Positions 12,650 to 28,667 of a stretch of DNA of 35,818 nt are shown here, one piece after another; the stretch's first letter is position 1, and each line of letters starts with the position of its first letter. Both the position numbers and the translations under genes were made by a program. The stretch comes from Clostridia bacterium. GTDB lineage: Bacteria; Bacillota; Clostridia; Oscillospirales; Acutalibacteraceae. The notes beneath the pieces are model-generated. The model was not told the origin of the DNA and did not search any database. It was given only the letters and a program-made list of their open reading frames with translations. The DNA is taken from assembly GCA_017471765.1 (NCBI GenBank), contig JAFURT010000038.1:1-35818 (forward strand), written 5' to 3'.

Positions 12650-14269
12650 ATGAACACCTACACCCTAACCACAACTGAATTTCCCTTGCCGGACATGCCC
12701 CGGGCGGTAGCGTTGGGGTTGTTTGACGGCCTGCATATCGGCCACCGCCAGGTGGTGCTGGCGGCGGCTGACGGTCTGCCGGATGGGGTTTCCCGCTGTG
12801 TATATACCTTCCAGCCGGATACTGTCACCACCAAGCCCAGAGAAGGCTTGGTGGACACTGCGGAACGCCTGTGCGACCAGCTCACCGCCATGGGCGTCAA
12901 CGAGCTGGTACAGGTGGATTTTGCCTGTATAAGACAGCTCACGCCGGAGGCCTTTGTAGAGCAGGTGCTCCACCACCAGTTACACGCTGTGCAGGTGGCC
13001 TGCGGCTACAACTACCGCTTCGGCAAAAACGGTGCCGGGGATGCCGATACCCTCACCGCCCTATGTGCCGTCTACGGCATTCGGGTGGTGGTTGTGCCCC
13101 CCGTCTGCGTAGAGGGCCAACCGGTTTCCTCCACCGCCATCCGCCAGGCACTGGCCGCCGGCGATATGGACACTGCCCGGCGGTTGCTTGGCCGCAGCTA
13201 TAGCCTGCGGCTACCGGTAGAAGCCGGCCAGCATTTAGGACGGCGGCTGGGTATGCCTACCATCAACCAGCCCCTCCCCCCGGATATGGCTCTTCCTCGC
13301 TTTGGGGTATATGCCTCCTGCGTGGAGATTGAGGGAGATGTGCTACCGGCGGTGACCAACATCGGGGTGCGCCCCACTGTGGGAGCTGATGCGCCACTGG
13401 CCGAGACCTTTATTCTGGACTATTCCGGTGACCTGTACGGCACCGTTCCTACTGTATATCCGCTGACCTACCTCCGGCCGGAGCAACAATTTGCCTCCCT
13501 GGATGAGCTGCAACAGCAGGTAGCCCGGGATGCGGCGGCCTCTGCCGCCTTATTCGCCCCCCCTGCCCGGCAGGAGGTGCGAGCTATCCTGTTTGATTTT
13601 GACGACACCCTAGGCATACGGGATGCCGCATTTCGGCAAGGGCTTGACCGCTTTGTCCGTTATTACTGCCCCGGCCTGCCGGAGGAGGAGCTTGTCCGGC
13701 GACGGGAGGAGATGTTTTACTTCAACCGCACCGGTTACGGCTCACCCATCGCCTATATACAGCTGGTCAGCCATTTTCTGAAGAAATGGGGACTGACAGA
13801 GGTGGAGCCGGAAACGGCGCTCCAGCGGCTGTGCGATAGCTTTGCGGCGGATTATCCACTCCACGAGGATGTATTCCCCACCCTATCCCGCCTGCGACAA
13901 CAGGGCTACAAACTGGGGCTCATCACCAACGGCAACAGCTATCCGCAAAACCGTAAGATGGATTACAGCGGCCTGCGTCCCTATTTTGACTTGATTGTCG
14001 TCTGCGGCGATGAGGAGGTACAAAAACCTCATCCGCTGATCTTCCGCCGGGCGGCCGCCCGGTTGGGCGTGCCGGTAGAAGCCTGTGTGTTCGTGGGAGA
14101 CCACCCGCAAAATGATATACAGGCCGCCCTGGATGCCGGTATGCAGGCCATCCGCAAGGATGCCGCCCACGAACCGGAGCATCCCTTCTTTTCTCTTCCT
14201 CTCCCCGACACGCCGGTCATCCACCGGTTGGGAGAGCTTCCCCACCTGCTGGATGGGTCTGCCACTTGA
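12650..14269 (+). CDS. ribF: RibF (riboflavin kinase/FAD synthetase) fused to a HAD hydrolase
   Basis: A 539-aa fusion; normal RibF is about 310 aa. Residues 1-180 form the FAD synthetase domain (GLFDGLHIGH at 23-32, SSTAIR near 160). Residues 185-300 form the riboflavin kinase domain (GRRLGMPTIN near 197-206, NIGVRPTV, and the catalytic Glu252 in AETF). After a short Ala-rich joint, residues 310-539 form a complete HAD phosphatase: FDFDDT (Asp316, Asp318), ITNG near 426, Lys459, and VGDHPQND with Asp484 and Asp489. All catalytic residues are present in both halves and there is no frameshift. The HAD part could dephosphorylate FMN or the riboflavin-pathway intermediate ArPP, but its substrate is not shown. 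It sits 9 nt after truB, the usual place for ribF. Confidence 0.93.
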   Translation: MNTYTLTTTEFPLPDMPRAVALGLFDGLHIGHRQVVLAAADGLPDGVSRCVYTFQPDTVTTKPREGLVDTAERLCDQLTAMGVNELVQVDFACIRQLTPEAFVEQVLHHQLHAVQVACGYNYRFGKNGAGDADTLTALCAVYGIRVVVVPPVCVEGQPVSSTAIRQALAAGDMDTARRLLGRSYSLRLPVEAGQHLGRRLGMPTINQPLPPDMALPRFGVYASCVEIEGDVLPAVTNIGVRPTVGADAPLAETFILDYSGDLYGTVPTVYPLTYLRPEQQFASLDELQQQVARDAAASAALFAPPARQEVRAILFDFDDTLGIRDAAFRQGLDRFVRYYCPGLPEEELVRRREEMFYFNRTGYGSPIAYIQLVSHFLKKWGLTEVEPETALQRLCDSFAADYPLHEDVFPTLSRLRQQGYKLGLITNGNSYPQNRKMDYSGLRPYFDLIVVCGDEEVQKPHPLIFRRAAARLGVPVEACVFVGDHPQNDIQAALDAGMQAIRKDAAHEPEHPFFSLPLPDTPVIHRLGELPHLLDGSAT

Positions 14270-14329: not shown

Positions 14330-14974
14330 ATGAAAGTTTCCCCCTCTATTCTGACCTGCGATTTTGGTTATGCCGCCGACGAGGTGCGCTTTGTGGAAGA
14401 TACCGGTGCCGACATGGTGCATCTGGATGTGATGGATGGGGTGTTCGTCCCCAATATCAGCTTTGGCCCGGCGGTCATCGGCTCTCTGCGCCCCCACACT
14501 AGCCTCTTCTTTGATGTACACCTGATGATGGCCCAGCCCCGGCGGATGCTCCCGGCTTTTGCCAAGGCAGGGGCGGATATGCTGAACATCCACCTGGAGT
14601 GCGATGACCCCATCGATGAGACGCTGGCCGACATTCATGCGCTGGGCAAAAAAGCCGCCATCACCCTCAAGCCGGCCACCCCGGCCGAGGCCGCTTTCCC
14701 CTATCTGGAGCAGGTGGCGATGGTGCTGGTGATGACGGTGGAACCCGGTTTTGGCGGGCAATCCTTCATGAGCGATATGTTGCCGAAGATCGCCGCCCTG
14801 CGGCAGGAGATCGACCGGCGTGGTCTGCAGGTGGATATTCAGGTGGATGGCGGCATCAACGCCGACACCGCCCGGCTGGTCGCCGAGGCCGGTGCTACCG
14901 TCGCCGTGCTGGGCAGTGCTCTGTTCAATGCTGAGCAGCCCTCTACCCTGGTAAAAACCGTGCAGGCTATGTAA
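14330..14974 (+). CDS. rpe: Ribulose-phosphate 3-epimerase
   Basis: A 214-aa TIM-barrel enzyme that interconverts ribulose-5-phosphate and xylulose-5-phosphate. It starts VSPSILTCDFGY. The metal ligands His31 and Asp33 (VHLDVMDG), His64 (DVHLM) and Asp173 (VDGGIN) are all present, with TVEPGFGGQ near 136. AAAGGATG precedes the ATG. Its last 8 nt overlap the 3' end of the convergent mecA gene. Confidence 0.96.
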   Translation: MKVSPSILTCDFGYAADEVRFVEDTGADMVHLDVMDGVFVPNISFGPAVIGSLRPHTSLFFDVHLMMAQPRRMLPAFAKAGADMLNIHLECDDPIDETLADIHALGKKAAITLKPATPAEAAFPYLEQVAMVLVMTVEPGFGGQSFMSDMLPKIAALRQEIDRRGLQVDIQVDGGINADTARLVAEAGATVAVLGSALFNAEQPSTLVKTVQAM

Positions 14975-15532: not shown

Positions 15533-15561
15533 ATGATAGCGGGTACCCCATCCATTTTCAA
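15533..15561 (-). promoter_or_regulatory. Sigma-A promoter for mecA
   Basis: On the minus strand, TTGAAA (15561-15556), a 17-bp spacer and TATCAT (15538-15533). Start of transcription would be near 15526. No equally good plus-strand promoter for the rnf-like genes was seen between 15498 and 15647. Confidence 0.6.
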
Positions 15562-15647: not shown

Positions 15648-16910
15648 ATGCAACTGTTTCTGCGGGGCATCGTGTTGCCCTTCCAAAAAGGAAAAACCTT
15701 GATGCGAGGCATAGAGGAGCTCCCTGTCCCTGCCGCTGTGCGTATGCCGGTGGGACGGGCAGACAAACCCTCGCCTATTGCCTCGCTGCCGGAGGAGGCT
15801 CCCCTGGCCGCCGGTCAGGTGCTGTGCACCCCCGAGGGGGATGTACCGGTGGTTTCCCCGATTTCCGGCATCCTGGAGGGTACAGTCGTTATGCAGAATT
15901 CTCTGTATGGCTCCCTGCTGTGTGCCGATATTCAGCCGGAGGGCGAGCGTACCGACCTGCTCCCGGTTATCCCCGAGGACGAGCTGACCGCTTCTGTCAT
16001 CCTGGATATCGCCCGGGAGGCCGCTGTCTACGACGAACTGGACGGCAGCCCCCTGTGGCAAAAATTACAGCGGTGGCAACTGCCGGAAAATGACCCGGCA
16101 GCGAAAACATGCATTCTGGTGGCCGATGCTACAGAAAACGATGTGTACGGCTCCTCGGCCTGGGCAGTACTGATGGAACAGCCCCGGCTTGCCCTGTTCG
16201 GCCTGCAGATGGCCGCCCGGGCTTTGCGGTTTTCCCGCTACCACATCGCCACCATGCTGCCCAAGCGGCGGCGACGCACCCTCAAGCGGGCCATCGGCCG
16301 TGAAAATGTGTATACTGTCGGGGATGAGTACCCGGTGACCGTCTATGCCGATGGCGACACCGAGGTGTACCGCATCGGTATCCAGGCCTGCCTGGCACTG
16401 GGCCGTGCGCTCAAGCAGGGCCTGCGCCACACCGCCGCTATTGTCACCGTCGCCGGTGACGGCGTGCCGGCGGCCCGGAATATGCGGGTGCCCTTCGGTA
16501 CAGATCTGCGCGCCCTGCTCTCCGCCTGCCAGGCAGAGAGCCACGTTCTGCCGATACTGGGTGATGCCATGACCGGTGTGGCCTGCGACGACCTGCAAAC
16601 ACCCATCCTGCCCGGTGTAACCACCGTACTGGCCATGAAGCCTCGCCCCATCCGTGTACCTAAACCCTGCATCGGTTGCGGGCGCTGTGCGGCTGTCTGC
16701 CATGCCGGGCTTTTACCCTACGAGATCGTGCGCCGGGCAGAAAATATGCACTACGAACGCCTGCAGCATCTGTCACCGGGCGACTGCGACGGTTGTGCCG
16801 TCTGCTCCTATGTCTGCCCTGCCGGACGGGATGTCGCCGCCGAAGTACTCAAGGCAGGCGAAACAAAGGGAACCATGTTCCTTAACTGGGGGGAGGATGA
16901 CAATGAATAA
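15648..16910 (+). CDS. rnfC: RnfC-like iron-sulfur protein lacking the NADH/FMN loop
   Basis: A 420-aa protein with RnfC layout. Barrel-sandwich N-terminus (FLRGIVLPF, then VVSPISGILEGTV) is followed by a Rossmann-like middle and two ferredoxin motifs near the end: CIGCGRCAAVC (Cys341, 344, 347, 351) and CDGCAVCSYVC (Cys380, 383, 386, 390). Both [4Fe-4S] sites are intact. The glycine-rich GGAGFPT loop and the GAECEPYLTADH block that bind FMN/NADH in normal RnfC are absent. The matching stretch (about residues 121-180) reads AREAAVYDELDGSPLWQKL and VADATENDVYGSS. ATG 15648 follows AAAGGTG. It is the first gene of a tightly overlapping cluster. Confidence 0.85.
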   Translation: MQLFLRGIVLPFQKGKTLMRGIEELPVPAAVRMPVGRADKPSPIASLPEEAPLAAGQVLCTPEGDVPVVSPISGILEGTVVMQNSLYGSLLCADIQPEGERTDLLPVIPEDELTASVILDIAREAAVYDELDGSPLWQKLQRWQLPENDPAAKTCILVADATENDVYGSSAWAVLMEQPRLALFGLQMAARALRFSRYHIATMLPKRRRRTLKRAIGRENVYTVGDEYPVTVYADGDTEVYRIGIQACLALGRALKQGLRHTAAIVTVAGDGVPAARNMRVPFGTDLRALLSACQAESHVLPILGDAMTGVACDDLQTPILPGVTTVLAMKPRPIRVPKPCIGCGRCAAVCHAGLLPYEIVRRAENMHYERLQHLSPGDCDGCAVCSYVCPAGRDVAAEVLKAGETKGTMFLNWGEDDNE

Positions 16911-17910
16911 GCCACTGGCACCCCATATCCGCACAGAAGCCCGTACCGGACACATGATGCTGGATATTCTCCTGGCGGCCCTACCGCTGGGGGTATTCTC
17001 CTATGTCAACTACGGCCTGCGGCCGGTCATTCTCCTACTGATCAGCATGGGCACCGCCATCCTATGCGAGGCTCTGTGCTGTCTGGTCGGACACCGCCCC
17101 CTGCGCACCGTCATGGATGGCAGTGCCGCTGTCACCGGCCTGCTCATCGGTCTGCTTATGTCCCCGATGGTGGATTATTGGGTCCCCATGTTGGGCGCCG
17201 CCTTCGCCATCATCGTGGTCAAAGCCCCCTTTGGCGGCTTCGGGCGGAATGTATTTAACCCAGCCGCCGCCGGTATTGCGGTGCTTACCTTCTGCTTCCC
17301 TCGGCGGATGTTTAGCTATCCGGCTATCTCCACCGTTTCCACACTGCCCCTGAGCATGACTGTTGAGGCAGGAGAAGCAGTTGTGGAACAATCCCTGGCG
17401 GCACAACTGCGGGCAGGAGCCACCCCCTCCCTGAGCAAGCTACAATTGCTGTTGGGCGATTTTGCCGGCCCCATCGGCGCCACGGCGGCGTTGATTCTGG
17501 GTGCATTTATTGTGTATCTACTGTTCCGGCGCAGTGTGTCCCCCTGGACGGTCATCCCCTACTTTGTCACCTGTGCGGTCATCGCCTGGCTGTTCCCTCT
17601 GACCGGCATGGGGCGGCTGTACAGCGCCATGGCACAGCTATGCGCCGGCTATGTGCTGTTTACCGGTGTCTTTTTCCTCAACGATCCGGTCACTACCCCC
17701 CGTTTTTGGCTGGGACGGCTGTTCTACGGCTTCTTCACGGCTATTCTGGTGATGCTGTTACAGCGCATCGGCCGGGCGGAGGCCGGCAGCTGCTTCGCTA
17801 TTCTGATCATGAACGCCCTCTCCCCCATTATCGATCGGTGGAGCTGGCACGTCTGGCACTGGCTTATGCGCCTGCGCCACTTCCGCAAGGAGGTGAAAGC
17901 CCATGGCTAA
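16903..17910 (+). CDS. rnfD: RnfD-like membrane flavoprotein subunit
   Basis: A 335-aa membrane protein with about nine helices and the RnfD/NqrB core: KAPFGGFGRNVFNPAAAG (residues 107-124) and FFLNDPVTTP (257-266). AGATP at 171-175 keeps the Thr (174) that carries covalent FMN in RnfD. ATG 16903 has GGAGG 6 nt upstream and overlaps the rnfC end by 8 nt. It overlaps rnfE by 8 nt, leaving no room for rnfG, which normally lies between D and E. Confidence 0.88.
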   Translation: MNKPLAPHIRTEARTGHMMLDILLAALPLGVFSYVNYGLRPVILLLISMGTAILCEALCCLVGHRPLRTVMDGSAAVTGLLIGLLMSPMVDYWVPMLGAAFAIIVVKAPFGGFGRNVFNPAAAGIAVLTFCFPRRMFSYPAISTVSTLPLSMTVEAGEAVVEQSLAAQLRAGATPSLSKLQLLLGDFAGPIGATAALILGAFIVYLLFRRSVSPWTVIPYFVTCAVIAWLFPLTGMGRLYSAMAQLCAGYVLFTGVFFLNDPVTTPRFWLGRLFYGFFTAILVMLLQRIGRAEAGSCFAILIMNALSPIIDRWSWHVWHWLMRLRHFRKEVKAHG

Positions 17911-18556
17911 ATCCCAAAAGATGCGCCGCCAGTTCTGGCAAACAGCCCATCTGTTTGTAGAAAATGCGGTCAGCAACAACATCGTGCTGATTCAGGCGCT
18001 GGGCCTGTGTCCCATCATTGCCGCCGGTACCAGCCTGAAAAACGGCGTCACCCTGACGGCATGCACCGCTGTGGTGCTGATTCCCCTGAGCTTTTTCATC
18101 GCCTCGGTGGGCAGTAAGTTGCCCAAATGGTTGCGTCCGGCTATATATGTCCTGCTGGCCGCCGCCCTGCTGTTGGCCGCCGGCTACGTTCTCGGCACCT
18201 ATATTTCCCCGGAACTGTACGCCAAATTGTACCTGTTCATCCCCCTGATGGCCACCAATCTGCTGTATACACGCAGTGTGGGGCTATCCACGGTCATCAA
18301 TCCGGTGGGCACCGTGGTGGATGCCCTTGGCAGTACGGTGGGCTTTGGTATGGTCATTTGTGCCATTTCCGCCCTGCGTGAGATGGCCATCAGTGATACC
18401 CTGTGGGACGTTCCTCTGGGCTATACGATTGCTCTGCCGGAAGCGGCGGTGCCCTTCACCGCTTTTATTCTGCTGGGCTTCATGTCTGCTCTGCTCCAGT
18501 GGTGCCGGCACCGGGTTTCTGCCTACTTCCACAGGAAGGAGGTGGAGGAGGCATGA
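17903..18556 (+). CDS. rnfE: RnfE-like membrane subunit with one cluster cysteine lost
   Basis: A 217-aa, six-helix protein of the RnfE/NqrD family. NNIVLIQALGLCPIIAAG keeps Cys36 of the half-helix. VDALGSTVGFGMVICAISALRE matches the family C-terminal part. The second conserved cysteine, normally in FIPLIVxNC, is replaced by Leu120 (FIPLMATNLLYTRS), and the usual GRAEAFA is also gone. In Rnf/Nqr these cysteines help to hold an intramembrane [2Fe-2S] cluster. The stop overlaps the next start as ATGA. Confidence 0.85.
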   Translation: MAKSQKMRRQFWQTAHLFVENAVSNNIVLIQALGLCPIIAAGTSLKNGVTLTACTAVVLIPLSFFIASVGSKLPKWLRPAIYVLLAAALLLAAGYVLGTYISPELYAKLYLFIPLMATNLLYTRSVGLSTVINPVGTVVDALGSTVGFGMVICAISALREMAISDTLWDVPLGYTIALPEAAVPFTAFILLGFMSALLQWCRHRVSAYFHRKEVEEA

Positions 18557-19170
18557 GCCAGATTTTCCAAGCAATCGGTACCGAGCTGTCTGAGCTTCTC
18601 TCCTTCTTCGTCACGGTTGCGCTGCTGCAAAACATTGTGCTCACCACCGGCTTCGGCTCCTCCGTTGTCCTTCACATGGTGCGCAAGCCGAAAAATATTT
18701 GGCTGTTCAGCGGTATGCTGGCCTTTTTCTCCGTTTTTACGGTGATTATTGCCTATCCTCTGGACCAGCTTCTGGGCACCGCCGTCAACAACTATTGGCG
18801 GCCGCTGATGATGGTGGGCATCACCGTTGTGCTGTATATTGTAGCCTATTTGGTGCTATCCCGTGCCTGCCCGAAATTCTACGCCCGCATCAGCCGCCTG
18901 TTGCCGATGGCCGCCTTCAACAACCTGGTCACCGGTATTGCCCTGGTGTGCAACCTGCAGTTCTCCTCCAGCCTGGGTGGCAATATCGGCCTGGCCATCG
19001 GCTCCTGCCTAGGCTTCGCCCTGCTCACCTGGCTGACCGCTGAGGGGATTGAACGGATGGATAACCCGGATATGCCGGAAGCCTTCCGTGGGATGCCCTC
19101 CACCCTGGTGTACCTGGGACTGCTGGCCCTGGCACTGATGGGCTTTACGTCCAATTTCTCCCTTATCTGA
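18553..19170 (+). CDS. rnfA: RnfA-like membrane subunit with both cluster cysteines lost
   Basis: A 205-aa, six-helix protein of the RnfA/NqrE family. The C-terminus DMPEAFRGMPSTLVYLGLLALALMGF is a clear RnfA match, read as parts. The half-helix normally FLGLCPFMGVS reads GFGSSVVLHMV (Ser36/Ser37 at the Cys site). The second site, normally LPLITTNCAVLGVAL, reads LPMAAFNNLVTGIAL (Asn124 at the Cys site). The gene overlaps rnfE by 4 nt. The next gene is not rnfB, the partner that usually follows. Confidence 0.83.
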   Translation: MSQIFQAIGTELSELLSFFVTVALLQNIVLTTGFGSSVVLHMVRKPKNIWLFSGMLAFFSVFTVIIAYPLDQLLGTAVNNYWRPLMMVGITVVLYIVAYLVLSRACPKFYARISRLLPMAAFNNLVTGIALVCNLQFSSSLGGNIGLAIGSCLGFALLTWLTAEGIERMDNPDMPEAFRGMPSTLVYLGLLALALMGFTSNFSLI

Positions 19171-19187: not shown

Positions 19188-20423
19188 ATGGGAATGAAAC
19201 TCAACCGTGGCCGGCACAAGGTCTTCGGCAAGAAGAAAACCGGTCTGCGCACAGCCCTTTGGGCGCTGGCCTGTGTGGTGATTATAGCGGCTGGCTTTTT
19301 CGGCGCTAAATTGCTGGACTCCCCACCCCCGACGGACAACCCGGCTTCCTCCGACAGGGTGCCGGAGAGCGAGCCGGACACCTCTACGCCCCAGCCTTCG
19401 GTACCGGAGCAGCCTGCCATCACCCAGCCGGACAGCCCGGACACGCTCCGCGCCTTTTATCTCCCGTTTTCTGCCCTGCGAGACACCGCCGGCTTGTCGG
19501 CGACGTTGCAGCAGGCCAAGGCCGCCGGCTTCAACAGCGTGGTATTCGACCTGAAGGACAACGCCGGCAACCTGTATTACCGTTTCGACAGCCAAATGGC
19601 CCGGCAGGTAAACAGCTACACGGCAGATGCCCTCACGACCGAGGAACTGACCAAGCTATTTGCCACCCTGCGACAGGCGGGCATCGAGCCCCTGCCCCGG
19701 CTGTATGCCTTCCGGGATAATCTGGGCGCCAAGGCGTTGCCGGCGGCCCGCATCACCCCCCAGGGCAACAATAGCTGGACTTGGTATGACAACGACCCCA
19801 ATAACGGTGGCAAGGCCTGGCTCAACCCCTATGCCGACGAGGCACACAGCTACATCATCGGGCTGGCACAGGAACTACAAGCCGTCGGTGCCACCGCCAT
19901 TTTGCTGGACGGTGTGCAGTTTCCCCATCAGATCAGCAGTGCCAGCTTTGGCTCCTCCTCCAACACCGCCCTGAACCGTGGGCAGGTGTTGACCCTATTT
20001 GTGGACAAGGTAAAAACAGCTTTGGATGGTTGCAAGGTTATTCTGTCCTGTACCGCCCAGGGGGCTTTGGGTACCGACACTGGTGTCTATGGCAACAACC
20101 CCCTCACCTTTGCCCCTACTGTGGCGGCTCCTACTATTCTGCCGGGTAGCCTGCCGGCGTCCATCCGCATCGGCGACAGCACTATCCAGAATGCCCCGGA
20201 CACTCTGCAACAAACGGTGCAGGCTCTGGTCAGTCAGATGGTGCTACGCACCAAGGTGATGGAGGCGGACAAACAGCCCACCCTGCTCCCCTGGCTTCAG
20301 GCAGAAGGCTACACCGCCGCCCAAATCAAGCAGGAGATTGCCGGTTGTATCGCCGCCGATGTGCAGCAGTACATCCTGTACCACCCAGCAGGGCTGTATG
20401 ATTTTTCGACCCTGACCCAGTAA
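19188..20423 (+). CDS. Membrane-anchored DUF4015 / glycoside-hydrolase-like protein
   Basis: A 411-aa protein. A basic start (GMKLNRGRHKVFGKKK) leads into one transmembrane anchor (about 24-45) and a Pro/Ser/Thr-rich spacer (46-86), so the main domain lies outside the cell. That domain has TIM-barrel-like blocks: RAFYLPFSAL, GFNSVVFDLKDNAGNLYY, AGIEPLPRLYAFRDN and GATAILLDGVQFP. These fit DUF4015, a putative glycosyl-hydrolase family of unknown substrate. GGAGG precedes the ATG. It lies 17 nt after rnfA and is probably co-transcribed with the rnf-like genes. Confidence 0.75.
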   Translation: MGMKLNRGRHKVFGKKKTGLRTALWALACVVIIAAGFFGAKLLDSPPPTDNPASSDRVPESEPDTSTPQPSVPEQPAITQPDSPDTLRAFYLPFSALRDTAGLSATLQQAKAAGFNSVVFDLKDNAGNLYYRFDSQMARQVNSYTADALTTEELTKLFATLRQAGIEPLPRLYAFRDNLGAKALPAARITPQGNNSWTWYDNDPNNGGKAWLNPYADEAHSYIIGLAQELQAVGATAILLDGVQFPHQISSASFGSSSNTALNRGQVLTLFVDKVKTALDGCKVILSCTAQGALGTDTGVYGNNPLTFAPTVAAPTILPGSLPASIRIGDSTIQNAPDTLQQTVQALVSQMVLRTKVMEADKQPTLLPWLQAEGYTAAQIKQEIAGCIAADVQQYILYHPAGLYDFSTLTQ

Positions 20424-24526: not shown

Positions 24527-25546
24527 TCACATCCCTAACAAATTTTGGTCAAAGGCAAACAGCACCTCATTAATTTCAAAAATGTTGTAGTTGCCCTTGC
24601 TTATGAAATATTCAATGATAATATCAAATTTATTGCTGTGAGAAAGCGCAAAGCCCGCCTTCCGGAGCATGTCCTCCGTTTCCTCCAGGGTCAGCTCCAG
24701 TGCAATGGCGAAGGCGATGGCGGTAAGCTTACTGGGCTTATACTGCACATCACTGCGGATTTTGGAGAACAGCTTACGGTCTACATTGGCTCTTTTATAG
24801 CACTGGACGTCCGTCAAGCCTTTTTCGTCAATCTTGCGCAGCAGCATCTGCGAGAAGCTCTCATCCATCTGCCGCAGTTTTTCCTGCAGACTACATTTTT
24901 CCGATTTTTCATCCACTGCCATAGGGGCGGCATCGCAAAGGGGTGGCACCTCAATCGGCTTCGCTGTGGGCGTAAAGCGCTGACGGCGAGCACGTTCCCG
25001 GCGCAGGTCGGTATGCTCATCCACATACCGGTCGTCTATGTAGGCGGCGATGTCCGAAAAAAGCTTTTCTCCTATAAGGAAGGCCGCCTTATCGAAGGTG
25101 ACGATATACACTGTCATCTCATGGGTGGACAGGAACTCTCCGATGACCTCCATTGCCACCTGCAAGGCCTGGGCCTTCGGATAGCCGTAAATGCCGGAGG
25201 AAATCAGCGGAAAGGCCACACTCTCGCAGTGGTAGGCCTCCGCCAGCGCCAGGGAGGTCTGGTAGCAGGAGGCCAGCAAAGCGCGTTCGTTATGGTCTCC
25301 CCCTTCCCAAACCGGCCCTACAGTATGGATGATATGCCGGCAGGGTAGTCGGTAGCCGCCGGTAATCTTGGCCTGCCCGGTAGCACAGCCACCCAGTGTC
25401 CGGCACTCCTTCAGCAAACCGGGGCCGGCGGCACGGTGGATACAGCCATCCACCCCACCGCCGCCCAGCAGAGATGGGTTGGCGGCATTGACAATAGCAT
25501 CCACCTGCATTTTCGTGATATCATTCCGAACAATCTTCAGCGGCAT
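24527..25546 (-). CDS. Macrodomain protein with C-terminal helical (HTH-like) domain
   Basis: A 339-aa protein. Residues 1-175 form a macrodomain (VDAIVNAANPSLLGGGGVDG, then GYRLPCRHIIHTVGP and ISSGIYGYP), the fold that binds or hydrolyses ADP-ribose. A basic linker (about 178-200) leads to a mostly helical region (about 220-339) with SFSQMLLRKIDEKGLTDVQCYKRANVDRKLFSKI, which resembles an XRE-type DNA-binding module. ATG 25546 follows AAAGGAG. It is transcribed from the promoter at 25613-25641 with the ArsC-like and DUF7662-like genes. The C-terminal function is inferred. Confidence 0.85.
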   Translation of the reverse strand: MPLKIVRNDITKMQVDAIVNAANPSLLGGGGVDGCIHRAAGPGLLKECRTLGGCATGQAKITGGYRLPCRHIIHTVGPVWEGGDHNERALLASCYQTSLALAEAYHCESVAFPLISSGIYGYPKAQALQVAMEVIGEFLSTHEMTVYIVTFDKAAFLIGEKLFSDIAAYIDDRYVDEHTDLRRERARRQRFTPTAKPIEVPPLCDAAPMAVDEKSEKCSLQEKLRQMDESFSQMLLRKIDEKGLTDVQCYKRANVDRKLFSKIRSDVQYKPSKLTAIAFAIALELTLEETEDMLRKAGFALSHSNKFDIIIEYFISKGNYNIFEINEVLFAFDQNLLGM

Positions 25547-26742: not shown

Positions 26743-27588
26743 TTACAGCATCCCTTTCTCAAATCCTACCAACAAGCCACCCTGTTCTGCATAAAAACTA
26801 CACAGGCCACCGGCGTGGTATATCTCCACCGGCACCTGTCCAAACTGAGCAAAGAGACGTGTCCGCAACATGTTGGCCGCCTGCTCGTTGCCGCAATGGC
26901 TGATACGCACCCGGCCACCGCTGTAGCCCAGCCGCCGCATATTCTCTACAATGGCCACCAGCGCCCGGTCCCGGCCACGGCTTTTCTCCAGCATCTCCAG
27001 CGTCCCCACATCGCTGGCCTTCCCCACGGCACGGATACCCAGCAGACCGGCGGCTTTGGCGATGAGAGGATTGACCCGTCCATTATTGGCCAGGTTTTTC
27101 ATGCTCTCCAGCATAAACAGCAACCCCGTATGCTTTGCATACGCCTGGATAGACTGGCACACCTCCTCAAAGGACAGGCCGGCCTGCACATATTCCCGCA
27201 GTTTTTCCAAAATCAGCCGCAACTCCGGCCCGGCAGATAAGGAATCCAGCACGTATACCTGCCGCCCCGGGTGTTGCTCCTCATAATCCTGCTTAGCGAT
27301 GCAGGCAGCATTATAACTGCCGGACAGATTGCTGGTGATGGTAACACACACCACCTGCTCCGCATCCCCAAAGGCGGTCAACCAGTCGCCTACCCCGGGG
27401 CAGGCCGTGGAGGAACGGCCTTTGTATTCCCGTAATTCCTGGGCCATCCCATCCACATCCAGCCGGGCGTCATCTACATATTCCTTTCCCTCCGTGATAA
27501 TCTTCAGAGACGCACAGGCAAAGGGTACCCCCGTCAGTTCCAGTGTGTCAGCAGAGGAATCCACCACAATTTTTATGTTGCTTTCCAT
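26743..27588 (-). CDS. degV: DegV-family fatty-acid-binding protein
   Basis: A 281-aa DegV/FakB-like protein that binds a fatty acid for phosphorylation by FakA. KIVVDSSADTL opens the fold, followed by STACPGVGDW, CVTITSNLSGSYNAA and GLLFMLESMKNLANNGRV, all typical. The ATG at 27588 follows AAAGGAG by 7 nt. It is 68 nt upstream of spoVAD on the same strand, so read-through is possible. Confidence 0.88.
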   Translation of the reverse strand: MESNIKIVVDSSADTLELTGVPFACASLKIITEGKEYVDDARLDVDGMAQELREYKGRSSTACPGVGDWLTAFGDAEQVVCVTITSNLSGSYNAACIAKQDYEEQHPGRQVYVLDSLSAGPELRLILEKLREYVQAGLSFEEVCQSIQAYAKHTGLLFMLESMKNLANNGRVNPLIAKAAGLLGIRAVGKASDVGTLEMLEKSRGRDRALVAIVENMRRLGYSGGRVRISHCGNEQAANMLRTRLFAQFGQVPVEIYHAGGLCSFYAEQGGLLVGFEKGML

Positions 27589-27621
27589 AGTTGGCTCCTT
27601 TCCAGTGAAAAATCCTTTTCC

Positions 27622-27650
27622 AGTATACAAAACCATCCTACGAAAGGCAA
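27622..27650 (-). promoter_or_regulatory. Sigma-A promoter for degV
   Basis: On the minus strand, TTGCCT (27650-27645), a 17-bp spacer and TATACT (27627-27622), about 35 nt before the start codon. Confidence 0.6.
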
Positions 27651-27753
27651 CCTACACCGCTATCCGGTAACTCTCACTCCGAAAACCGGCTGGTAGAACG
27701 AAAGTATCTCGCTCTACCGCAGGTAGAATTACCGTAAAACACGACAAAACGCC

Positions 27754-27782
27754 TTGCAATCCCCCACAAAAAGCCGTATACT
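27754..27782 (+). promoter_or_regulatory. Sigma-A promoter for the HAD phosphatase gene
   Basis: TTGCAA at 27754-27759, a 17-bp spacer and TATACT at 27777-27782, about 43 nt before the ATG at 27825. Confidence 0.65.
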
Positions 27783-27824
27783 ATATGGGTGTTCGGAAAA
27801 CAACAGGAAAGTGCGGGAAAGAGA

Positions 27825-28433
27825 ATGAAAATCAAAAATGTTGTGTTTGATTACGGCCAGGTAATGATTCATTTCAAGCCGGCTTACATGGTGGGGCGGT
27901 ACGTCAGCGACCCGGCAGATGCCCGGTTGCTGGAAGAGGTGATATTCGACCGGCTGTATTGGGATGACCTGGACAAGAATGCCATCAGCGACGAGGCGGT
28001 CATGGCCGCCTGTCGCCAGCGGTTGCCCCAGCGGCTGTGGGAGGTGGCAGACACCATCTACTACAACTGGATTTACAATATTCCCCCGGTAGAGGGAATG
28101 GAGGAGCTGGTTGTCTATCTGCGCCAGCAGTATGGTGTAGGGCTCTATCTGCTATCCAACATCTCTACATATTTTGCCGACCATGCGGAGGAGATGCCCT
28201 CGGTGGGGGTGTTCGACCGCTGTGTTCTGTCCGGGCCCCTCGGCATCGTCAAGCCCGACCGGGCCATTTTCGCCCACCTGTGTGATACCTGTGGGCTTAT
28301 CCCGGAAGAAACCCTGTTCATCGACGACAGCCCCCTTAATCTCGCCGGCGCCAAAGCTTACGGCATCCATGGCTATCAGTTTGATGGAGATGTGAGGAAA
28401 CTGAAAGCCTATTTGGATGAGGTATTAGGGTAG
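27825..28433 (+). CDS. HAD-family phosphatase, YihX-like
   Basis: A 202-aa HAD hydrolase. The nucleophile motif is FDYGQVMIHF: Asp followed by Gly two residues on, as in the YihX-like subfamily rather than the classic DxD. LLSNIS (motif II), Lys in GIVKPD (motif III) and FIDDSPLNLAGA (motif IV) complete the site. ATG 27825 is chosen from the first HAD strand (MKIKNVVFD); GGGAAAG lies upstream. Sugar phosphates are likely substrates, by family only. Confidence 0.82.
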   Translation: MKIKNVVFDYGQVMIHFKPAYMVGRYVSDPADARLLEEVIFDRLYWDDLDKNAISDEAVMAACRQRLPQRLWEVADTIYYNWIYNIPPVEGMEELVVYLRQQYGVGLYLLSNISTYFADHAEEMPSVGVFDRCVLSGPLGIVKPDRAIFAHLCDTCGLIPEETLFIDDSPLNLAGAKAYGIHGYQFDGDVRKLKAYLDEVLG

Positions 28434-28552: not shown

Positions 28553-28594
28553 AAAAAGAAAAAGGACACCCTATTGGGTGTCCTTTTTCTTTTT
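28553..28594. terminator. Bidirectional terminator next to tRNA-Gln
   Basis: A 19-bp perfect stem (28553-28571 with 28576-28594, loop TATT) whose core is GGACACCC/GGGTGTCC inside A-rich and T-rich arms. It ends the tRNA transcript and the plus-strand HAD transcript. Confidence 0.92.
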
Positions 28595-28667
28595 GGCTGC
28601 GGAACTAGGAATCGAACCTAGACAAAGAGATTCAGAGACTCTCGTGCTACCTTTACACAATTCCGCA
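28594..28667 (-). tRNA. tRNA-Gln (anticodon CUG)
   Basis: The minus strand reads TGCGGAA at the 5' end, pairing with TTCCGCA, then discriminator G and an encoded CCA. The anticodon loop CTCTGAA gives CUG. The T-arm is CTAGGTTCGATTCCTAG. The U1-A72 pair and G73 are expected for glutamine tRNA. A T-T mismatch closes the anticodon loop (31-39). Confidence 0.93.

Follow-up and report, generated by a model that had tools for sequence, protein, structure and literature searches.

A stripped copy of the Rnf complex in some gut bacteria probably does a different job

The window analysed here, a whole stretch of 35,818 nucleotides (nt) from a clostridial genome (contig JAFURT010000038.1 of assembly GCA_017471765.1), carries four overlapping genes derived from rnfC, rnfD, rnfE and rnfA, whose products are called C', D', E' and A' below. 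Sequence comparisons place them in a natural family of Rnf-like clusters in which most redox sites are gone and the membrane core is conserved. We regard it as almost certain that this family, its losses and its conservation are real, and it is nearly as firm that such a cluster would be unable to carry out the Rnf reaction along its known route, because ligands are lost and subunits are missing. Since the cross-membrane electron wiring is lost and the cluster is under selection, this stripped Rnf copy probably does a different job in the gut bacteria that carry it. Our favoured reading, with a probability of about 0.4, is that the cluster is an Rnf paralogue without a cross-membrane electron circuit, re-used as a redox-gated or uncoupled membrane module. 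The circuit parts lost are RnfB, RnfG, the membrane [2Fe-2S] cluster, the covalent flavin mononucleotide (FMN) of RnfD and the site of RnfC for FMN and reduced nicotinamide adenine dinucleotide (NADH). Of the Rnf chain, both the part leading outward (RnfB, the A/E cluster, the RnfG flavin and the RnfD covalent FMN) and the NADH end are missing.

The genes for C' (15648..16910, 420 amino acids (aa)), D' (16903..17910, 335 aa), E' (17903..18556, 217 aa) and A' (18553..19170, 205 aa) lie on the forward strand, each preceded by a G-rich putative ribosome-binding site. As stated in the preliminary description of this DNA, the four open frames are tightly coupled, with overlaps of 8, 8 and 4 nt at C'/D', D'/E' and E'/A', and no gene lies between D and E. 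In Pfam, D' (a membrane subunit, like E' and A') matched NQR2_RnfD_RnfE (PF03116) only, with 235.9 bits and no fused NAD-binding domain; E' and A' matched Rnf-Nqr (97.0 and 61.0 bits), and C' matched ferredoxin-type domains only. The NCBIfam models for Rnf subunits were all four matched below their cut-offs (score/cut-off: rnfC 111/246, rnfD 181/207, rnfE 72/213, rnfA 61/229 bits). As D', E' and A' nevertheless pass in Pfam, counts of Rnf based on Pfam may overstate respiration in such genomes.

In Acetobacterium woodii, the ligands of the membrane [2Fe-2S] cluster are Cys25 and Cys113 of RnfA and Cys25 and Cys108 of RnfE (PMC11889175). Our alignment agreed with the earlier claim that three of these four cysteines are replaced in the window: E' keeps Cys36 and has Leu120 at its other site, and the A' sites fall in the Ser36/Ser37 region (Ser37) and on Asn124, which leaves one ligand of four. 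Where a cluster has E' as well as A' (51 cases), one cysteine was kept in 30, none in 21 and two in no case; all four were present in 14 of 17 canonical rows. Cysteines were counted on the uncut E alignment. For the other E columns, E proteins longer than 270 aa were cut to their last 240 residues, leaving at most two gap rows of 52, and the canonical comparison for the other A and E residues leaves out three regions with odd cysteines (L124, L125 and L129). The asparagine that precedes each lost cysteine was kept in 51/52 A' (Asn123 in the window) and 42/52 E', and Arg67 and Leu103 of E' were kept in 43/52 each. The three regions set aside, L124 (G227:C12), L125 (G054:C9) and L129 (G188:C9), are Rnf-type and keep an RnfG match, with altered [2Fe-2S] cysteines: L125 and L129 have RnfB beside E-A and two of the four cysteines each, and L124 has none of the four. 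The same [2Fe-2S] cluster may have been lost in these cases too.

The RnfD subunit of Clostridium tetanomorphum carries FMN on Thr153, near Arg130 and Glu185 and with Asn90 close by (PMC9588780). We aligned 54 D' with 17 canonical RnfD and with the C. tetanomorphum protein, whose residue numbers are used for the columns. The Thr153 column is Ser164 in the window (nt 17392-17394), and the equivalents of Arg130 and Glu185 are lost. Across the 54 D', Thr153 was present in five (L103, L107, L108, L109 and L111), Arg130 in none, and Glu185 and Asn90 in three each. The preliminary description had taken Thr174 for the FMN threonine; this is a misalignment, as the GATP sequence concerned lies 10 residues downstream of the true column, and this was the one observation in it that failed, those on the genes, the overlaps, the cysteine sites and the C' loop and clusters having all stood. 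From these alignments the FMN site of RnfD is also lost, and the site that D' retains is the riboflavin/cation Asn-Asp pair (Asn119, nt 17257, and Asp261, nt 17683, in the window). Of these two residues, which lie deeper and bind riboflavin and perhaps a cation, Asn124 was kept in 41/54 D' and Asp248 in 45/54, compared with 17/17 canonical rows for both. These two residues correspond to the riboflavin ligands N123 and D249 of A. woodii, mutation of which abolishes Rnf activity (PMC11889175). Where C' is encoded at the same locus, Asn124 was kept in 30/36 D' and Asp248 in 33/36; where it is not, in 11/18 and 12/18 (Fisher P 0.10 and 0.047, uncorrected for kinship).

Both [4Fe-4S] motifs of RnfC are present in the window C' (Cys341/344/347/351, nt 16668-16700, and Cys380/383/386/390, nt 16785-16817), and the eight cysteines were kept in 36/36 C'. 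Where RnfC has the FMN/NADH loop GGAGFPT, the window C' reads DELDG (from nt 16032); the loop pattern was found in 0/36 C' and in 15/15 canonical RnfC, and conversely a DxxDG motif in 26/36 C' and 0/15 canonical proteins. Retention of the clusters and loss of the loop, both noted at the outset for the window, thus extend to every C' examined. When 16 C' were scanned (E<=0.01), RnfC_N and SLBB were matched in 10 each and Complex1_51K in nine, so the RnfC fold is still recognisable in the less diverged members. Physical contact between C' and D' is supported by the N-terminal arm of D'. In Rnf, this arm of RnfD is buried in RnfC; the window D' keeps it as APHIR, and an SPHIR-like motif, chosen after seeing the rows, was found in D' at 21/36 loci with C' and 0/18 without, as expected if the arm holds C'. 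At two loci the C' next to D' ends in a long charged tail (L050, 10396-13080, 894 aa; L052, 2967-5321, 784 aa), and no variant-level match to E' or A' was found in these genomes.

The variant is widespread within one clostridial order. Searches of 60 genomes (that of the window and 59 relatives) found C' in 10/10 genomes of the genus (G000-G009, E<1e-161), and a contig scan with A' gave 12 loci, including some from Candidatus Avimonas and UBA5905. In a survey of the order, 197 genomes at least 90% complete were searched with PF02508, the 41 with four matches or only weak ones were searched with the A' profile, and 40 regions were fetched. Ten of these were canonical-type (L124, L125, L127, L129, L130, L131, L133, L134, L136 and L137), and all except L136 entered the canonical set; L060 was left out from another set of 20 regions. 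The variant loci numbered 55 in total, and D' is present at 54; the other (L135) is a contig-edge piece from the same genome as L057, lacks D' and stands outside all counts of 54. The named loci are from Oscillospiraceae, Ruminococcaceae UBA5905 and Candidatus Avimonas, which points to Oscillospirales as the order. In one family (f25) the variant is carried by 17 of the 20 genomes listed. When 293 genomes of the class were scanned with the A' profile, scores of 166-252 bits occurred in nine genomes, all in the order of the window; every other match among the best ones listed scored at most 131 bits, which is the canonical level and one at which diverged members could score too. Members outside the order may therefore still exist.

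The usual layout is rpe-(mecA)-C'-D'-E'-A'-DUF4015. It was complete, mecA included, at 15/54 loci; 17/54 had rpe-(mecA)-D-E-A-DUF4015, 11/54 had rpe-(mecA)-C-D-E-A without DUF4015, and the remaining 11/54 were mixed, some of them cut by a contig end. Profiles for RnfB and RnfG matched nothing within 5.5 kb of D' at any of the 54 loci. Gene order and cysteine losses are thus conserved family-wide, in several families, and the early statement that the normal electron path is lost is borne out by the lack of RnfB and RnfG at the loci, by the at most one [2Fe-2S] cysteine of four and by the disappearance of the FMN and NADH sites.

The cluster is not the sole Rnf of its cell. In the assembly of the window, which is 78.6% complete, PF02508 gave four matches, two being E' and A' and the other two, with high scores (219 and 195 bits), lying on another contig, C39, in a complete rnfC-D-G-E-A-B cluster; the window cluster is therefore a paralogue. 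On C39 (L005, 8349-10998) the canonical cluster is followed by a protein without Pfam match, ApbE and a second FMN_bind protein. Other genomes carry the variant with no such companion. In five of them (G195, G042, G065, G079 and G118, 90-99% complete, G195 in two contigs), E/A matches were confined to the variant and low-scoring ones, no RnfB scored above the curated cut-off, weaker ferredoxin-like matches being present, and FMN_bind (PF04205) was absent, these being five of the seven genomes searched for it; G079 was placed among them from the E/A, RnfB and FMN_bind searches of its genome. At least in these genomes, the variant would work without recognisable RnfB or RnfG. The possibility that distant rnfB and rnfG genes complete the cluster, raised with the first description, was rejected on these five genomes, which lack both at the cut-offs used.

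In a tree of 71 D rows, the 54 variants lay on one side of a branch and the 17 canonical proteins on the other (Shimodaira-Hasegawa-like approximate likelihood ratio test, SH-aLRT, 97), and the E variants were set apart in the same way (SH-aLRT 94). The A tree required two changes, because L124 and L129, canonical-type rows whose own cysteines are altered, are placed within the variant group. These were quick, unrooted trees with long branches in several rows, and since they have no outgroup, 'one clade' means only that the variant lies on one side of a branch. Nearest to the canonical side were the rows of family f7 (L056, L098 and L099), the only D' in which Glu185 and Asn90 are kept, which fits a stepwise loss. 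Selection was estimated by the ratio of nonsynonymous to synonymous substitution rates (dN/dS, Nei-Gojobori) between the window and three genus members: the 12 estimates for C', D', E' and A' were 0.13-0.32, and the same pairs gave 0.26-0.37 for DUF4015 and 0.08-0.19 for rpe, all rough ratios as dS was high (0.75-1.33). These values indicate purifying selection and, with the open frames and the conserved gene order, agree with the initial judgement that the cluster is selected and not decayed. None of the three outcomes named at the outset as refuting that reading was obtained.

How such a cluster might act can be proposed from the parts that remain. The two RnfC clusters and the RnfD riboflavin are neighbours in Rnf, at 11.7 A (PMC9588780). 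C' and D' would remain in contact by way of the D' N-terminal arm. The final segment of the former chain, made up of the two C' [4Fe-4S] clusters and the riboflavin on the cytosolic side of D', would survive as a redox input that senses a cytosolic carrier or exchanges electrons with it. This input could gate the D'-E'-A' core, which would move a cation or small solute, or signal to the envelope protein DUF4015, with no pumping. At 18/54 loci the redox input would have been dropped from the locus, the membrane core alone being left, without the RnfC clusters. The broader proposal, that this is an Rnf/Nqr branch without any cross-membrane electron transfer whose core is a gated or passive transporter or signalling module, seems to us an even bet; the clusters and the riboflavin would first have been kept as a redox gate and then lost in several lineages.

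Several observations weigh against the redox-gated or uncoupled module. C' was not found at the 18 loci (families f1, f23 and f25), where it was sought at the locus only and not genome-wide, which suggests that the core is useful without C'; at these loci the decay of Asn124 and Asp248 is weak. The arm motif is missing from 15 of the 36 D' that are accompanied by C'. Two genomes (G010 and G026) have C'-D' only, all their PF02508 matches being at the canonical level with no variant E'-A' in the genome, which speaks against one indivisible machine. Thr110, Gln85 and Glu88 of A', proposed Na+-path residues of RnfA/E, are mostly lost; taken with the asparagines of A' and E' and the Arg67 and Leu103 of E' that are kept, this indicates a conserved half-helix core and an altered Na+ path, and the old ion path may be lost in A' and E'. 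DUF4015 is loosely linked to the cluster: it was not found near 15/54 loci (at one, L057, the contig ends first), and in G030 a DUF4015 gene lies directly 3' of rpe with no Rnf-like match in the 15 kb fetched (L179, 8070-9113). Against selection of the cluster, two frames are damaged, E' of L126 being 134 aa long and DUF4015 of L039 being split in two. The initial idea of an Rnf-derived membrane system of new function stands for its derivation, its selection and its lost path, and a new function is probable.

Among other explanations, a truncated relay from a ferredoxin-like cytosolic donor through the C' clusters and D' riboflavin to a membrane-soluble or cytosolic-face acceptor, with E' and A' structural, appears rather unlikely. 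It would account for the C' clusters kept in 36/36, for the Asn and Asp of riboflavin kept in 30/36 and 33/36 of the D' with C', for the C'-D' pairs of G010 and G026 and for a RibF-HAD fusion gene near the window cluster, and it has a parallel in NqrB, which passes electrons to quinone; D'-E'-A' without C' at 18/54 loci does not fit, and no linked acceptor gene was seen. We consider unlikely a non-redox envelope transporter or scaffold working with DUF4015, with C' as a regulatory leftover. DUF4015 is within 5.5 kb of D' at 39/54 loci, including 17/18 of those without C', and DUF4015 occurs fused to a YkyA domain, itself fused elsewhere to polysaccharide deacetylases (PMC12700454). The 15 loci and the G030 locus cited above argue against such a partnership. 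In the window DUF4015 protein, moreover, the presumably catalytic Asp within LDGVQFP is not conserved among 21 relatives, so that enzyme activity is doubtful.

That the cluster forms an alternative core of canonical Rnf, borrowing its RnfB and RnfG, is very improbable. The window genome (G000) could lend both from its complete rnf cluster, but the idea is refuted for the five genomes described above, the membrane cluster ligands are gone, and of the residues of RnfA that contact RnfB, Arg154 and Glu158 are mostly lost in A', though position 32 is Lys, as in RnfA, or Arg in 40/52. A decaying duplicate operon is hardly credible. Weak NCBIfam scores, long branches in some lineages and the two damaged frames would be expected of one, but dN/dS values are low, most of the family has full-length frames (at the 10 genus loci, none of the C', D', E' and A' frames is interrupted), the eight C' cysteines are kept in 36/36, and the same gene order is found in several families. 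We reject decay on purifying selection and family-wide conservation despite the short E' and the split DUF4015.

Compared with the ferredoxin:NAD+ oxidoreductase RnfABCDGE of C. tetanomorphum and A. woodii, the variant has homologous C, D, E and A subunits in the order C-D-(G)-E-A, two [4Fe-4S] clusters in C, the riboflavin/cation Asn-Asp pair in D and the Asn before the lost cluster cysteines; it differs in having no B or G at the locus, in the loss of the [2Fe-2S] ligands, FMN threonine and RnfC loop, and in lacking C' at a third of the loci. Na+-NQR is reported to go back to the duplication of an rnf operon, with loss of rnfB and a change of function (PMC4014512), and its NqrA is described as having no redox cofactors (PMC12174285). 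The variant resembles it in this history, but Na+-NQR kept a full membrane electron core (cofactors of NqrB, C, D and E) and gained NqrF, whereas the variant core lost its cofactor sites; nor was an FMN-carrying NqrC-type subunit found, the RnfG profile matching at 0/54 loci and FMN_bind being absent from 5/7 genomes searched. Two-subunit Nqr/Rnf-like complexes are likewise reduced, with an RnfD flavinylation site described as not conserved (PMC10979944). According to the same source they keep an RnfG-like FMN protein and have an NAD-binding domain fused to the RnfD-like subunit, whereas the variant has no RnfG at the locus and usually keeps E' and A'. RsxABCDGE of Escherichia coli, which is related to Rnf, serves in redox regulation by reducing SoxR and has full subunits and cofactors (PMC12174285). 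Among the top-ranked open-licence matches in PubMed Central we found no account, for these bacteria, of an Rnf made up of C-D-E-A with neither B nor G. The variant would add another fate of a duplicated rnf operon beside NQR. The ion carrier of Rnf is disputed between RnfD (C. tetanomorphum, PMC9588780) and RnfA/E (A. woodii, PMC11889175), and a natural family with most redox sites gone and a conserved membrane core separates transport from electron flow, making this question testable by comparison.

Downstream of the cluster, the DUF4015 (PF13200) gene (19188..20423, forward strand) starts 17 nt after A'. Its product scored 102.4 bits against a gathering score of 27, has a hydrophobic stretch at the N-terminus and a linker rich in Pro and Ser (by eye), and all 21 members of the alignment matched the family (E<=0.01). 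The preliminary description had this gene in place of rnfB. It does follow A', but it is no simple replacement, because it was not found near 15/54 loci and adjoins rpe without the cluster in G030, where the C-D-E-A cluster may have disappeared from the site it normally occupies.

Upstream, and divergent from C', lies a gene for a MecA-like protein (PF05389; 14967..15497, reverse strand). The window protein scored 20.8 bits for a gathering score of 22.5, and 19/20 members of its alignment matched (E<=0.01, best 2.9e-26). Such a gene is within 5.5 kb of D' at 37/54 loci; an exclusive partnership was discarded, as a mecA-like gene also lies within about 1.2 kb of rpe in 8/33 genomes chosen because no variant E/A was seen in them. 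A sigma-70-like promoter picked by eye, TTGAAA-17-TATCAT (15533..15561, reverse strand), reads into the mecA-like gene, and its -10 block is kept in 9/10 genus sequences. A CATNNTA-like block 5' of C', considered as a sporulation promoter, reads better, again by eye, as this sigma-70 -10 element. A sporulation link was also dropped: SpoIVA is found in 185/197 genomes of the order and is too common to be informative. In one genome (G231:C25), SpoIVA (27131-27841) lies about 2 kb from the variant cluster (A' 24533-25090).

The rpe gene, for ribulose-phosphate 3-epimerase (14330..14974, forward strand), is within 5.5 kb of D' at 49/54 variant loci. Upstream of it, a gene on the forward strand (12650..14269) encodes a fusion of RibF (riboflavin kinase/flavin adenine dinucleotide synthetase) with a HAD hydrolase. 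HAD proteins include some that remove the phosphate from FMN. The fusion was found at 10/55 variant loci (9/10 genus loci and L047), and near the window cluster it is a possible link to riboflavin, limited to those loci. Elsewhere, L048 (15983-17314) encodes a stand-alone RnfC-like protein, presumably PduS-type, near a phosphotransacylase-like gene. The sole RNA gene detected in the window at the thresholds used was a tRNA-Gln (CTG) gene at 28594-28667 on the reverse strand.

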